Origin: Actinoallomurus soli
Lineage (GTDB): Bacteria > Actinomycetota > Actinomycetes > Streptosporangiales > Streptosporangiaceae
Assembly (NCBI RefSeq): GCF_024055715.1
Contig: NZ_JAMXMV010000006.1
Coordinates: forward strand, 124,001 to 188,000
Length of the DNA stretch: 64,000 nt
Direction of reading: 5' to 3'
Within the stretch, counting starts at the first letter, position 1. Every line of letters begins with the position of its first letter. The notes under the pieces are model-generated. The model was not told the origin of the DNA, searched no databases, and saw nothing but the letters and a program-made list of their open reading frames with translations. This document shows, piece after piece, positions 13,297 to 30,939 of the stretch. Made by a program: the position numbers and the translations under genes.

Positions 13297-14055
13297 TCAG
13301 CTCAGCCGGGCGCGGGCGTACGCGGCCATCGCGTCACGCTGGAACTCGGCCAGACCTTCGGTGATCTTCTCGTAGTTCTCGCGGAACCTCGGGTCGTTCA
13401 CGTACATCTCCCCGAGCTTGGTGTACGCGCACGCGTCCGGCTTCCAGAACCGGCTCACCGAGCGGTAGTTCCAGTCCACCTCGTCCAGAACGACCGGGTC
13501 GTCGGGCGCCGCGCCCGCGACCTTCAGCTCGGCCATCCGGACCATGTGCGCGGTCACGTCCCGCTGCCAGGTCTCCATCTGCTCCGGTGTGATACCCGCC
13601 TGGGCCTGCGCGGCCTGGGCGTACTGCTCCGGCCAGCGCTCGCGCGCCTCGTCCTCGTACTGCGAGGAGTCCAGGCCCGCGAAGAGGTTCTCCGGCCGAT
13701 TGATCTTCGGGGTCACGGTGTCACCACCTTCTTCGAGTTCGGCGATGGTGCGGGCCACGGTCTCGACGAGCACTCCGAGCCGCTCGCGCTCGGCCAGCAG
13801 CCGGGCGTGGTGGCGGCGCAGCGCCGCGACCGTGCTCGGCTCCGAGTCGATCGCCTCGGCGATCTCGGCCAGCCCCACTCCCAGCTCCCGCAGCACGAGG
13901 ATCTGCTGGAGCCGCAGCAGCTGCTCCTCCTCGTAGTAGCGGTAGCCGTTGTCCCCGACGTACGCCGGGGTGAGCAGGCCGATCTCGTCGTAGTGCCGGA
14001 GCGTCCGCGAGGTGACCCCCGACATCCGGGCCACCTGAGCGATCGACCAGGTCAT
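13297..14055 (-). CDS. MerR-family regulator with TipAS-type ligand domain
   Basis: Residues 2-70 are a MerR HTH (SIAQVARMSGVTSRTLRHYDEIGLLTPAYVGDNGYRYY) followed by a dimerisation coiled coil (about 75-110). Residues about 125-252 match the TipAS/SkgA antibiotic-binding fold, with LGEMYVNDPRFRENYEKI near the end. Cys in the ACAYTKLGEMY stretch may correspond to the cysteine that traps thiopeptides in TipA. The 252-aa length matches TipAL. The promoter has the MerR-type 19-bp spacer with a perfect palindrome (14103-14133), so autoregulation is likely. It lies upstream of the TetM-type gene on the same strand and could help control an antibiotic response. Confidence 0.85.
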   Translation of the reverse strand: MTWSIAQVARMSGVTSRTLRHYDEIGLLTPAYVGDNGYRYYEEEQLLRLQQILVLRELGVGLAEIAEAIDSEPSTVAALRRHHARLLAERERLGVLVETVARTIAELEEGGDTVTPKINRPENLFAGLDSSQYEDEARERWPEQYAQAAQAQAGITPEQMETWQRDVTAHMVRMAELKVAGAAPDDPVVLDEVDWNYRSVSRFWKPDACAYTKLGEMYVNDPRFRENYEKITEGLAEFQRDAMAAYARARLS

Positions 14056-14098
14056 GACCGTCCCATCCACCGGTGCGGCCGGGCGTTCCGGCCACGAC

Positions 14099-14545
14099 TC
14101 AGACGATAGGAGTTGACGTAACGTCAAGGTCAACCGCGCGGGCGCCCGCCTCAGGCACGGCCGTCTCCCAGACCGGGTCGGCCGCGACCCGGGAGAGCCG
14201 CCAGCCGTCAGGGGTGCGGGCCGCCTCCAGCCGGTACCGCTCACCGAGGATCCGCCGCTGCGCCGGACCCGCGAAGACGACGAGCAGGTTGGCGTCGATG
14301 GTGGCGCGGTCGCCGTCCACGGCGATGAGGGGATTGGTGATGAAGTGCTGGGTCGCCACCTCGGGCGGGTGCGAGCGCCGGGCCTGCGCGGCAAGCGCGT
14401 CGATCCCGCGCACCGAGCCGCCCGCCGTGTCGGCCGTCGCGTCCTCGGTGAAGACCGTACGCGCCTCGTCGAACCGTTTCTCGTCCAGCCACAGCCCCAG
14501 GCGGTTGACCAGGTCGGAGAGCAGGGCGTGGTCGCTACGTCCCAT
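14099..14545 (-). CDS. SnoaL/NTF2-like protein
   Basis: The 148-residue protein has an NTF2-like pattern: an N-terminal helix pair (LLSDLVNRLGLWLDEKRFDEA), VFTEDATADTAGGSVRGIDAL, and strands FITNPLIAVDGDRATIDANLLVVFA and GERYRLEAARTPDGWRLSRV. Function is unknown; related proteins are small isomerases or hydrolases. The ATG at 14545 has AAGAGA upstream. It is divergent from a MarR gene across an 88-bp gap full of half-sites, so it is the probable MarR target. Its 3' end carries the promoter of the downstream TipA-like MerR gene. Confidence 0.75.
   Translation of the reverse strand: MGRSDHALLSDLVNRLGLWLDEKRFDEARTVFTEDATADTAGGSVRGIDALAAQARRSHPPEVATQHFITNPLIAVDGDRATIDANLLVVFAGPAQRRILGERYRLEAARTPDGWRLSRVAADPVWETAVPEAGARAVDLDVTSTPIV
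14103..14133 (-). promoter_or_regulatory. MerR-type promoter, 19-bp spacer with perfect palindrome
   Basis: On the minus strand, TTGACC (14133-14128) and TATCGT (14108-14103) are separated by exactly 19 bp. The spacer contains the perfect 15-bp palindrome TTGACGT-T-ACGTCAA (14113-14127). The long spacer and palindrome are hallmarks of MerR-controlled promoters. It drives the TipA-like gene starting at 14055. Confidence 0.75.
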
Positions 14546-16683: not shown

Positions 16684-17328
16684 TCAGGCGAGGGCGGTGA
16701 TCGCTCGGCCGAGCGCCTCCTGGTCCTCCTCGGGCAGCCCACGGGCGGCGTGGACCATGTGGAGGGCGGTCGCGAGGCGGGTCCGGTCGTCGTCCGTGCC
16801 GAGGTCGCCCAGGTAGGCGGGAAGGATGAGGCCGAGCGTCTCGAGGTCGCGGCGGGCGCACAGGCCGGAGAGCAGGTCCGCCAGGAGGTCGTCGACGGGA
16901 CGGGGGCCCAGGCCGCCGGTCGAGCGCAGGCCCTCGGCGATGGCGAACCGGTTCCAGTCGCCGTACTGCCCCTGAGGCAGGGCGTCGACGCATGCGGCGG
17001 CGCGCTGGAAGTGCTCGCGTGCCTCGTCGAGCCGGCCCAGGTCGCGGCAGGCCTTGGCGATGTTCAGGTGCAGGGACGGGTAGAAGGCGCGGACGCGTTC
17101 GTCGCCGACCCGGTCGGCGCGGGCGAGGCATTCGCGGTTCCAGTGGAGGGTGTCCTCGGGGGTCGGCTGGTGCCGGGCCACGTAGTGCGCCGCGACGCAT
17201 GCCTCGTAATCGTCGGTGGCCGTCTCCCACGCTCGCCGGAAGAGGTCGCGCGCGTCGTTCTGCCTGGCCTCGGCCTCCGCACGCATGCCCTCGCTGCACA
17301 GCCGTACGACCGGGTTGTCGGGGTTCAT
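16684..17328 (-). CDS. TPR-like helical protein coupled to the MerR-clamp gene
   Basis: The 214-residue, wholly alpha-helical protein has at least four TPR-like helix pairs (ARQNDARDLFRRAWETATDDYEACVAAHYVARH, SLHLNIAKACRDLGRLDEAREHFQRAAACVDAL, and others). Proteins of this type bind other proteins. Its start overlaps the stop of the MerR-beta-clamp gene by 4 nt, so the two are co-translated and probably act together. No signal peptide or enzyme motif is visible. The family appears to be actinobacterial and uncharacterised. Confidence 0.75.
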   Translation of the reverse strand: MNPDNPVVRLCSEGMRAEAEARQNDARDLFRRAWETATDDYEACVAAHYVARHQPTPEDTLHWNRECLARADRVGDERVRAFYPSLHLNIAKACRDLGRLDEAREHFQRAAACVDALPQGQYGDWNRFAIAEGLRSTGGLGPRPVDDLLADLLSGLCARRDLETLGLILPAYLGDLGTDDDRTRLATALHMVHAARGLPEEDQEALGRAITALA

Positions 17329-18392
17329 CGCTCTTCTTCCTGGAGGACCGGCATGACGAGGGTGGTGAAACTGCCCTGGTCTGCGGAGCGGACGACGACC
17401 GGGCGGAGCGTGGAGGAGATCTCCAGCAGCACGTCGGGGCCCACGCTCGCCTCGACGGCCGGCAGGAGCACGCCCGGGTCGAACGCGATCCGCAGCGGAG
17501 GACCCGTGCAGATCGACGGGACCTCGGCCGCTGCCCGGCCCAGGACGAGACGATCGCGCTCGTCGGTCCGGAGGAGGACCGGGCCGTCGTCGTGGTCGGC
17601 GAGGGCCGTACGGAGGGCGTCGCGGTCAACGATGAGGCGGTGCCGGGCGGCCGGGAGGTCGTCCAGGACGATCCGGTAGTCGGGGAACGTCCCATCGACG
17701 GCGGGGAGCGGCCGCTCCTCGCCGTCGCCGTGGACGCGGGCGCCCCGGCCGTCGACCTCGATCGCGACCTCCGGCAGGCGCATCGCCCAGGAGGCGATCT
17801 CCTTCATCGTTCCGGCGTCGGCCAGGAGGCCGTGCGCACCCCCGGTGACGGCACTGGGGCGCAGGGCCCGTACGGCGAGCCGGTAGCGGTCGGTGGCCAC
17901 CAGGCGCACCTCCTGGCCGGTGAGCTCGACGAGCACGCAACCGAGCACGGGGAACTCCTCCCGCACCGCGCCGCGGGCCGCCGACGGCGCCACCTGGCGT
18001 ACCGCGCCGGCCAGTTCCGCGCCGCCGACGCGGGCCATCGCCGCGTTCCCGGCGCCGGAGAGGTCCCGGAGCAGGCCGTCGATCGCCGCCTGGGCGGCCG
18101 CGGCGGTGTCCCGGGTACGGCGCGCGTGCGCCGTCAGCACCGCGCGGGCCTCCTCCCGGTCGCCGTCGAGCACCACCGACGCGTCGACCAGCGGCAGCCC
18201 GGTCTCGCGGAGCCGCCGTACGAGGACGGCGCGCGGCTCCTGGTCGGGGGCGTAGTAGCGGTACCCGGTCGCGGCGTCCACGCGGGCGGGCCGCAGGACG
18301 CCGCAGTCGTCGTAGAACCGCAGGGCGCTCGGCGTCAGCCCCACCCGGCGGGCGAAGGTCCCGATGCTGACCAGCGCTTCGGCGTCGTTCAT
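17325..18392 (-). CDS. Fusion: MerR HTH + DNA polymerase III beta-clamp-like domain
   Basis: Residues about 8-75 are a MerR HTH (SIGTFARRVGLTPSALRFYDDCGVLRPARVDAATGYRYY), followed by a coiled coil (to about 125). Residues about 140-355 resemble two domains of the DnaN sliding clamp: VLVELTGQEVRLVATDRYRLAVRAL, FPDYRIVL, VDRDALRTAL, and a typical clamp ending SFTTLVMPV. It has only two of the three clamp domains per chain, so it is not dnaN. I chose the ATG at 18392 because an ATG at 18401 would lie inside the -10 box; this makes the mRNA leaderless. The clamp domain may be a ligand- or peptide-sensing module. The biological role is unknown. Confidence 0.85.
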   Translation of the reverse strand: MNDAEALVSIGTFARRVGLTPSALRFYDDCGVLRPARVDAATGYRYYAPDQEPRAVLVRRLRETGLPLVDASVVLDGDREEARAVLTAHARRTRDTAAAAQAAIDGLLRDLSGAGNAAMARVGGAELAGAVRQVAPSAARGAVREEFPVLGCVLVELTGQEVRLVATDRYRLAVRALRPSAVTGGAHGLLADAGTMKEIASWAMRLPEVAIEVDGRGARVHGDGEERPLPAVDGTFPDYRIVLDDLPAARHRLIVDRDALRTALADHDDGPVLLRTDERDRLVLGRAAAEVPSICTGPPLRIAFDPGVLLPAVEASVGPDVLLEISSTLRPVVVRSADQGSFTTLVMPVLQEEER

Positions 18393-18399
18393 GCCGGAC

Positions 18400-18430
18400 A
18401 TCGTGAGCCTTCGAGCGGCTCGAAGGTCAA
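18400..18430 (-). promoter_or_regulatory. MerR-type promoter, 19-bp spacer and 19-bp palindrome
   Basis: On the minus strand, TTGACC (18430-18425) and CACGAT (18405-18400) have a 19-bp spacer. The perfect palindrome CCTTCGAG-CGG-CTCGAAGG covers 18408-18426. The -10 ends 7 nt before the ATG at 18392. Autoregulation by the MerR-clamp protein is the simplest reading. Confidence 0.75.
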
Positions 18431-18437
18431 CTCCGGC

Positions 18438-18914
18438 TCAGTCGGCGGAGCCGGCCAGGCGCTCGTACGTCTCGATCGTCCGGACGAACGTCGCGCGCTC
18501 CTCCGGGGACAGGGGGTCGAACGCCGCACGCCAGGCCTTCGCCCCGTTGGCGAGCCAGCTCTCGATCGCCGAGCGGGTCTCCGCGTCCTCGGTGAGGTCG
18601 ACGATCGTCCGCCGGGCGTCTCCCGGGTCCGAGCGCCGTACCAGGACGCCCTGCCGGGCGAGGTCGCTGACCATCAGGCTCACGGTGGTCGGGGCGACCT
18701 GCAGCCGGGAGGCCAGCTCGCCGACCGCCATCGGCCCGTCGAACAGCAGGTACGACAGCAGCGACAGGTGCCTGGGCGCCAGGTTGAAGGAGCGGAGCCG
18801 TTCGGGGATCGGCGTCCGCTTGAGCCGTGCGGCCAGCCGCGGCATCAGCGACAGCATGGCCCGGACCGCCTCGTCCGCGCGCAGGCCGGGCTCTGGCGTC
18901 TGCTCCGTTGACAT
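18438..18914 (-). CDS. MarR-family transcriptional regulator
   Basis: The 158-residue winged-HTH protein has the MarR core: NLAPRHLSLLSYLLFDGPMAVGELASRLQVAPTTVSLMVSDLARQGVLVRRSDPGDARRTIVDLTED (about residues 43-110). It is divergent from the F420-nitroreductase/hemerythrin gene. The shared 106-bp gap has a perfect 19-bp inverted repeat, so it probably represses that gene and itself and is released by a ligand, possibly a quinone or redox-active compound (inference from the target). The ATG at 18914 is the first plausible start. Confidence 0.88.
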   Translation of the reverse strand: MSTEQTPEPGLRADEAVRAMLSLMPRLAARLKRTPIPERLRSFNLAPRHLSLLSYLLFDGPMAVGELASRLQVAPTTVSLMVSDLARQGVLVRRSDPGDARRTIVDLTEDAETRSAIESWLANGAKAWRAAFDPLSPEERATFVRTIETYERLAGSAD

Positions 18915-29586: not shown

Positions 29587-30939
29587 TCAGTGGGCCATGT
29601 CGACGAAGCGGCTGTAGTGACCCTGGAAGGCGACCGTCACCGTGGCGGTGGGGCCGTTACGGTGCTTGGCCACAATGAGGTCGGCCTCACCCGCCCGCGG
29701 GGACTCCTTCTCGTACGCGTCCTCGCGGTGCAGCAGGATGACCATGTCCGCGTCCTGCTCGATCGACCCACTCTCGCGCAGGTCGGACACCATGGGCTTC
29801 TTGTCCGTTCGCTGCTCCGGGCCACGGTTGAGCTGGGAGAGCGCGATGACCGGGACCTCCAGCTCCTTCGCGAGGAGCTTGAGCGACCGGGAGAACTCCG
29901 AAACCTCGACCTGGCGGCTCTCCACCCGCTTGCCGGACTGCATGAGCTGCAGGTAGTCGATGATGACCAGGCGCAGGTCGTGCTGCTGCTTCAGCCGCCG
30001 GCACTTGGCGCGGATCTCCATCATCGACATGTTCGGCGAGTCGTCGATGAACAGCGGGGCCTCGGCGACCTCACTCATCCGCCGGGCCAGCCGCGTCCAG
30101 TCCTCGTCGTTCATCGTGCCGGACCGCATGGCATGCAGGGCGACCCGCGCCTCGGCCGACAGCAGGCGCATCGTGATCTCGTTGCGCCCCATCTCCAGCG
30201 AGAAGACCACGGTCGCCAGCTGGTGCTTGATCGCCGCCGCCCGCGCGAAGTCCAGAGCAAGGGTACTTTTCCCAATGGCCGGCCTTGCGGCGACAATAAT
30301 CATTTGTCCGGAATGGAGGCCGTTGGTCAAGGCATCCAGATCCGTGAAGCCGGTGGGGACGCCGACCATCTGGCCGCCGCGGCTGCCGATCGCCTCGATC
30401 TCGTCCAGGGCGCCGGGCATGATGTCGCTGAGCGGCGAGTAGTCCTCGCCGGAACGCTTGTCGGCGATGGCGTAGACCTCGGCCTGGGCCCGGTCGAGGA
30501 GGGCGTCGGCGTCGGCGCCGTCGGTGCTGTAGCCGAGCTGGGCGATGCGGGTGCCGACCTCGACCAGCCGTCGCAGGACGGCCTTCTCCTGGACGATCTT
30601 CGCGTAGTAGCCGGCGTTGGCCGCCGTCGGGACCGACGCGACCAGGGTGTGCAGGTAGGGCGCGTCGCCGATGCGGCTGAGCTCACCGCGCTTGAGCAGC
30701 TCGTCCTTCACCGTGATGGCGTCGACCGGGTCGCCCCGGCCGTACAGGTCGAGGATCCGCTCGAAGACGGTCTGATGGGCCGGACGGTAGAAGTCTCGGC
30801 TCTGGACCATCTCGATGACCTCGGCGATCGCGGTCTGGGACAGCAGCATGCTGCCCAGGACGCACTGCTCGGCGGCGAGGTCGTGCGGCGGGGTTCGCTC
30901 GAACTCCCGCTCGTGTGACGGCATCTCGGTGACGCTCAT
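29587..30939 (-). CDS. dnaB: Replicative DNA helicase DnaB
   Basis: The 450-residue helicase has the N-terminal DnaB domain (PPHDLAAEQCVLGSMLL; about 18-120) and a RecA-like helicase domain with Walker A AARPAIGKST, VVFSLEMG (motif 1a), Walker B LVIIDYLQLM, SREVSEFSRSLKxLAKEL-like motif 3 and DLRESGSIEQDAD (motif 4). It unwinds DNA at the fork as a hexamer. No intein is present. The ATG at 30939 has GGGGGTG upstream. It is separated from the rplI operon by an inserted MATE gene, a gene remnant and an amidase gene. DnaA boxes lie directly upstream. Confidence 0.97.
   Translation of the reverse strand: MSVTEMPSHEREFERTPPHDLAAEQCVLGSMLLSQTAIAEVIEMVQSRDFYRPAHQTVFERILDLYGRGDPVDAITVKDELLKRGELSRIGDAPYLHTLVASVPTAANAGYYAKIVQEKAVLRRLVEVGTRIAQLGYSTDGADADALLDRAQAEVYAIADKRSGEDYSPLSDIMPGALDEIEAIGSRGGQMVGVPTGFTDLDALTNGLHSGQMIIVAARPAIGKSTLALDFARAAAIKHQLATVVFSLEMGRNEITMRLLSAEARVALHAMRSGTMNDEDWTRLARRMSEVAEAPLFIDDSPNMSMMEIRAKCRRLKQQHDLRLVIIDYLQLMQSGKRVESRQVEVSEFSRSLKLLAKELEVPVIALSQLNRGPEQRTDKKPMVSDLRESGSIEQDADMVILLHREDAYEKESPRAGEADLIVAKHRNGPTATVTVAFQGHYSRFVDMAH

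Follow-up and report, generated by a model that had tools for sequence, protein, structure and literature searches.

In the window, as we call the 64,000-nucleotide stretch of Actinoallomurus soli DNA analysed here, a gene on the minus strand (17325..18392) encodes a MerR-type DNA-binding head fused to a fragment of the sliding clamp, DnaN. In the clamp part, evolution appears to have dropped much of the conserved basic chemistry and to have retained the pocket by which the clamp binds its partners. Because the pocket is kept and many DNA-gripping features are lost, what the switch senses is probably a molecule that binds the clamp or attacks it. In our view there is an even chance that the fusion is a sensor of the one-component type that amplifies itself and responds to toxic peptides which bind the clamp, similar in its logic to TipA and AlbA.

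The fusion protein and its clamp part

Read from its probable start, the fusion protein has 355 residues. The MerR winged helix-turn-helix (18165..18368, minus strand) matches PF13411 at residues 12-79 of a longer, 358-residue reading (E 1.2e-12). It is followed by a long helix (18057..18158, minus strand; helix 79-112 of the AlphaFold model), by which the protein is expected from the model to dimerise as a coiled coil. The central clamp domain, domain II (17679..18020, minus strand), is recognized both by PF02767 (residues 128-241, E 7e-8, above the cut-off) and by its fold. The C-terminal domain, domain III (17346..17648, minus strand), is below threshold by sequence (PF02768, 17.7 versus 27 bits), and its fold is clear in the model. 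The whole model has a pLDDT of 92.3, and its best PDB match in Foldseek is 5agv, the M. tuberculosis clamp with a natural product (E 7.4e-19); clamp structures with a bound natural product are among its top matches. The first-pass annotation, made from the letters alone, had proposed a MerR head joined to two clamp-like domains and a structural comparison with DnaN as a check. The matches to PF13411 and PF02767, the model and Foldseek all bear this out, and the comparison gave the strong clamp match just mentioned.

Clamp domain I is required for the normal ring. It is missing from the window protein, in which Pfam, TIGR and Foldseek matched domains II and III only; TIGR00663 gave 44.7 bits against a cut-off of 137.65. 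The MerR helix-turn-helix is N-terminal in all 56 aligned relatives, the window protein included. Seven of these 56 also matched the N-terminal clamp Pfam model, which presumably reflects the mutual similarity of clamp domains. Domain III ends in RSADQGSFTTLVMPV, a C-terminal segment almost invariant among close relatives, the first part of which is lacking in DnaN. Residues that are near-invariant and specific to the fusions are W202, R252 and R335-T344.

The residues of the E. coli clamp pocket, as listed in the accessible text of PMC11139829, were mapped onto the fusions through the E. coli alignment. In the window protein they fall in the motifs ATDRYRL (17877..17897, minus strand; E. coli 171-177) and FPDYR (17673..17687, minus strand; E. 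coli 241-245) and in the L-V-M-P-V of domain III (E. coli 360-364). Over 73 non-redundant fusions, mean conservation is 0.81 in the pocket columns versus 0.63 in the other clamp columns. For a test of retention, we took the 105 columns that are at least 80% conserved in 31 DnaN proteins and counted a column as kept when at least half of the sequences in each of three fusion clades retain it. The clades were labelled from search origin and score bands (A, 86 members; B, 12; C, 33), and the bands are not exact clades. By this count, all three clades keep nine of the 15 pocket columns but only 11 of the other 90 (Fisher p 1.4e-4). Twelve of these 90 are lysine or arginine columns outside the pocket, and a single one of the twelve is kept. 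In clamp domains II and III, the basic residues have a DNA-facing role.

The retention within the pocket is uneven. The equivalents of M362, P363, R176, T172, L155 and P242 are 82-100% conserved in every fusion clade, and subsite I is largely intact, with the positions of R152, R246 and V247 as the exceptions. Subsite II differs in clades A and B: N320 is replaced by D or E, Y323 by V or T, and R365 is often lost, so that canonical partner motifs may bind poorly there. In clade C, subsite II is nearer to that of DnaN (N320 in 82%, R365 in 85%), Y323 being mostly F and M364 mostly I. The fusions thus resemble DnaN in the fold of domains II and III, in most of the subsite I pocket residues and in M362 and P363, and they share its partner-binding pocket in part (nine of 15 conserved columns, with subsite II changed in clades A and B). 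They are unlike DnaN in having no domain I, in the loss of most basic residues, in being fused to a DNA-binding regulator and in their separate place in the tree from the 31 DnaN sampled.

In that tree, built on the clamp part, all 131 fusions stand apart from the 31 DnaN with a support of 1.0, the DnaN set consisting of the window genome's own protein and its 30 best matches, without second DnaN paralogues. Given this split, a single fusion event is the simplest reading. As to placement, loci L020-L022 go with clade B and L024 with clade C, and L174 stands apart.

Promoter, operator and the TPR gene

Upstream of the fusion gene and on the same minus strand, the sequence contains a -35 element, TTGACC (18425..18430), a 19-bp spacer (18406..18424) and a predicted -10 element, CACGAT (18400..18405), which in relatives is mostly SASAAT. 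The putative operator is a perfect 19-bp palindrome of 9-1-9 form, CCTTCGAGC-C-GCTCGAAGG (18408..18426, minus strand), that overlaps the -35 element and fills most of the spacer. According to the accessible text of PMC9909328, a palindrome within a 19-20 bp spacer of the target promoter marks the MerR family, and with its 19 bp the fusion promoter has this layout. The ATG from which the longer, 358-residue frame was listed (18401) sits within the predicted -10 element; therefore, the likely start is the ATG at 18390..18392 (minus strand), residue 4 of the longer reading and 38 nt from the first base of the -35 element.

We compared this arrangement with that of the best 80 of 86 confirmed relatives, which come from several genera and are called named relatives below. 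TTGACC[CT]T is found within 130 nt upstream of the fusion in 78 of them. The operator pattern, which was derived from the very sites then counted, is upstream of the fusion in 77 of the 80 versus none of 3731 random windows from the same loci. The relatives have a common dyad centre, at which 68% of the nine column pairs are complementary over 83 distinct sites, other centres reaching at most 40%; clade C has a distinct palindrome of its own. From the -35 element to the start, the distance is 38 nt in 71 named relatives, 37 or 39 nt in six and 32 nt in one, where the script chose an earlier in-frame ATG, and in the remaining two no promoter was found. It is 37 nt (nine loci) or 38 nt (three) in all 12 loci of clade B, and among the 33 loci of clade C it is 38 nt in 27, 37 nt in three and 32 nt in two, no site being found in one locus. 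Since the spacing is fixed, the start codon falls at the expected transcription start, and the fusion mRNA is predicted to be leaderless or nearly so. The 19-bp spacer with its perfect palindrome and the leaderless type of start had both been pointed out beforehand; the former is confirmed in the window and by the operator in 77 of the 80 relatives, and the latter agrees, as a prediction, with the 38-nt geometry in 71.

The operator is also rare. In the 9.4-Mb genome that contains the window, its pattern has one exact match, the fusion promoter, and one match with a single mismatch. Among 15 other fusion-bearing genomes, sites were found in 14, ten with one site and four with two, against a background of two of the same 15 genomes, once each, for a reversed control pattern. 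Some of the second sites look unrelated. In genome G103, neither match is the fusion's own, divergent promoter, and genome G136 has none. With one or two sites per genome, the regulator seems to serve its own operon alone or very few sites. As far as sequence goes, the fusion would control its own gene from a genome-rare operator.

The next gene (16684..17328, minus strand) overlaps the fusion gene by 4 nt (ATGA) and encodes an all-helical TPR protein of 214 residues (model pLDDT 95.8). In 60 of the 80 named loci, the gene immediately after the fusion is a TPR homologue, and when the neighbours at the 80 loci were clustered, it was the only one to exceed 21 loci (42 as called by a simple gene script). 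The gap between the two genes ranges from -11 to +146 nt across relatives, by the script's choice of starts. The conserved trait is therefore the adjacency of fusion and TPR gene and not the 4-nt overlap. Thus, of the overlapping pair described in the first-pass annotation, both overlap and pairing are present in the window, the length of the overlap is not conserved, and the pair itself, far from being confined to this strain, is retained across several genera. In clade C, a TPR match is absent in 33 of 33 loci. There, in calls from a simple script, the fusion is followed by a gene on the opposite strand in 20 loci, by one on the same strand at a distance of at least 155 nt in seven and by one within 100 nt in six, so that in many cases its promoter seems to have the fusion as its only product.

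The TPR protein was also considered as an exclusive partner of the fusion, and this was rejected: the wider TPR family is present in 72 of 394 genomes versus 34 of 394 for the fusion. None of 20 unlinked TPR genes fetched carries the operator in the 330 nt upstream. The sole TPR match in G103 (locus L164) is 610 kb away from the fusion and has an exact operator 98 nt upstream of its start; the encoded protein is 33% identical to the window's TPR protein over 140 residues. The G103 operator is suggestive of the TPR gene being a true target of the fusion. No clamp-binding motif QLxLF was seen by eye in the part of the TPR alignment inspected. Among the 20 fetched loci with unlinked TPR homologues, three (L214, L216 and L231) have the homologue beside a gene for NAD-dependent DNA ligase (ligA, by Pfam) and five (L219, L227, L228, L232 and L233) beside an apparent uracil-DNA glycosylase gene (ung), the latter read by eye and Pfam-checked in two of the five.

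Potential function of the fusion

Comparison with known MerR regulators and with known spare clamps may provide some clues. TipA and AlbA are MerR regulators in which a drug-binding domain controls the regulator's own gene and the product traps the drug, as set out in the accessible text of PMC7762955 and PMC10189885. The latter describes AlbA as a 'self-regulatory sponge', the palindrome of whose 19-bp spacer is found nowhere else in its genome. As far as these texts describe the class, the fusion shares with it the MerR head, the coiled coil, a C-terminal ligand domain (drug-binding in TipA and AlbA) and putative autoregulation, and with AlbA it shares the 19-bp spacer with a palindrome and an operator that occurs once in the genome. 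By the same texts, the TipA or AlbA product can itself be a resistance factor, and we propose the same logic for the fusion. It is unlike them in that its ligand domain is a sliding-clamp fragment instead of TipAS (PF07739) and in that it has a TPR partner gene. Pfam finds MerR and clamp domains only, and no TipAS, in the fusion, which is therefore not a TipA member. A short second product of the TipAS kind was considered and rejected, as a start conserved inside the gene appears to be absent (27 of 86 by a loose criterion).

Natural peptides that bind the clamp pocket exist, and spare clamp genes, griR and mypR, accompany the pathways for griselimycin and mycoplanecin; for such a pathway-borne DnaN gene, a role in self-resistance has been proposed (accessible part of PMC10817943). 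Like GriR and MypR, the fusion would be a second clamp-derived protein proposed to meet clamp-targeting peptides. Unlike these, which by that description are DnaN genes with a biosynthetic pathway, it consists of a shortened clamp attached to a regulator that has a promoter of its own. No recurring biosynthetic cluster was found within 6 kb of the module at the 80 named loci, where only the fusion and the TPR gene exceed 21 loci; this and the lack of a conserved internal start count against the sensor proposed below.

In the mechanism that we propose, a MerR dimer would bind its own promoter at the palindrome, within the unusually long spacer. Having lost domain I and most of the conserved basic residues, the truncated clamp would no longer encircle or grip DNA, and its retained pocket could take clamp-targeting peptide antibiotics, for example of the griselimycin type. 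Once the pocket is occupied, the MerR head would distort the promoter and turn on its own operon, the output being more clamp decoy and the TPR helper, or an exporter in rare relatives. The decoy may perhaps also soak up the ligand. The apparently selective retention of the pocket lends support to the early suggestion of a clamp part that could sense a replication-related peptide or some other ligand. A more specific version, to be held tentatively and somewhat short of an even chance, is that of a target-mimic receptor: an antibiotic's target, the clamp, would have been trimmed and joined to a MerR switch, and the result would be a mobile, self-amplifying decoy that both senses and sequesters natural products aimed at the clamp, the TPR protein serving as an accessory factor in immunity.

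Three sets of output genes were seen, namely the fusion alone, the fusion with the TPR gene (the 60 of 80 above) and the fusion coupled to an MFS transporter. The last is found in two divergent loci, L174 and L180, where the fusion is translationally coupled (ATGA) to the transporter in place of the TPR gene, and these transporters have weak similarity to the Mef/Tap/EntS exporters. However, such coupling occurs in only two of 65 loci inspected downstream, and the pocket motif of L174 is degenerate (ATNRHWL); both observations count against the toxic-peptide sensor.

The main rival to the toxic-peptide sensor is an endogenous replication signal, which we regard as unlikely. Free clamp-binding proteins or peptides would fill the pocket at stalled forks, and the operon would be a replication-stress response. 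The retained pocket is the site for endogenous partners in the accessible text of PMC11139829, and subsite II of clade C, with the N320 and R365 frequencies given above, is much as in DnaN. In addition, a dnaB-type gene lies within 6 kb upstream of the fusion in 21 of the 80 named loci (Pfam-checked in one); in the window, dnaB (29590-30939) is about 11 kb away. A little is also gained from the unlinked TPR homologues beside ligA (3/20) and ung (5/20), which together with the proximity of dnaB would also suit a housekeeping replication signal. In contrast, a toxin or drug signal is better matched by the patchy spread (34 of 394 genomes), by the plasmid copy found between transposases, by the one or two operator sites per genome, which make no regulon, and by the exporter coupling in two members.

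The clamp fold could also be a mere scaffold, whose hydrophobic cleft takes an unrelated small molecule in the manner of the GyrI-like domain in BmrR. The changes of subsite II in clades A and B and the near-invariant residues W202, R252 and R335-T344, specific to the fusions, would agree with this. However, the clades, which have little else in common, retain the pocket residues much more strongly than the remainder of the domain, and we consider a scaffold distinctly improbable. Least probable of all is a role against invaders, in which the fusion would detect or oppose, for instance, a protein from a phage or plasmid that hijacks the clamp: its distribution is patchy and it is plasmid-borne, once between transposases, but PADLOC has no match for the TPR protein and only a weak one (mad1, E 3e-4) in the HTH region of the fusion, and a search of viral contigs with the TPR protein found no TPR relative.

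If the toxic-peptide sensor is real, a drug or stress receptor would have been built from the target itself, and its retained pocket would predict candidate ligands. MerR-clamp switches would then reveal a resistance route to clamp-targeting antibiotics, and they could act as reporters for the discovery of new ones. With an endogenous ligand, the fusion would instead report free clamp-binding proteins directly at the level of transcription.

Distribution and genomic setting

In the class to which the window belongs, 34 of 394 genomes match the fusion profile, four of them only in part. In its family, 27 of 297 genomes matched a search with the whole protein: 16 of these have full or nearly full fusions (one, in G115, cut short), one has a fragment and the rest are MerR-only. 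Nine plasmid records carry the fusion, eight of them typed as non-mobilizable. On a Streptomyces plasmid, the fusion and TPR genes form a two-gene cassette flanked by two transposase genes. The annotation of seven of these nine goes no further than 'MerR family transcriptional regulator', and the other two have none. A MerR-clamp regulator seems not to have been described before; titles and abstract openings, which are weak evidence as the subscription literature lay mostly outside the search, contain no apparent description of one, and the term 'MerR' is absent from the accessible part of PMC10817943.

Several other features of these loci deserve mention. Plasmid pADI95-16b (L152) carries a divergent fusion and its TPR gene at a distance of a few kb from the plasmid's dnaE (DNA polymerase III alpha) and a Ku gene. 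In Actinoallomurus purpureus (L043 and L009, 80% identity), the fusion frame is about 35 residues short, stopping ahead of the conserved C-terminal segment, and no TPR gene follows; from its sequence, the module looks decayed in this species. In the window, a gene for a MarR-type regulator (18441-18911, minus strand) ends a few nt before the -35 element of the fusion, and a similar MarR-type protein, read by eye, precedes the fusion in L043. Finally, about 3 kb away there is a second MerR regulator gene (13300-14088, minus strand), which encodes a TipAS antibiotic-recognition domain (PF07739, E 2e-25). Its promoter-like site (14103-14133, minus strand) has a TTGACC and a palindromic spacer, with two mismatches to the operator pattern of the fusion.
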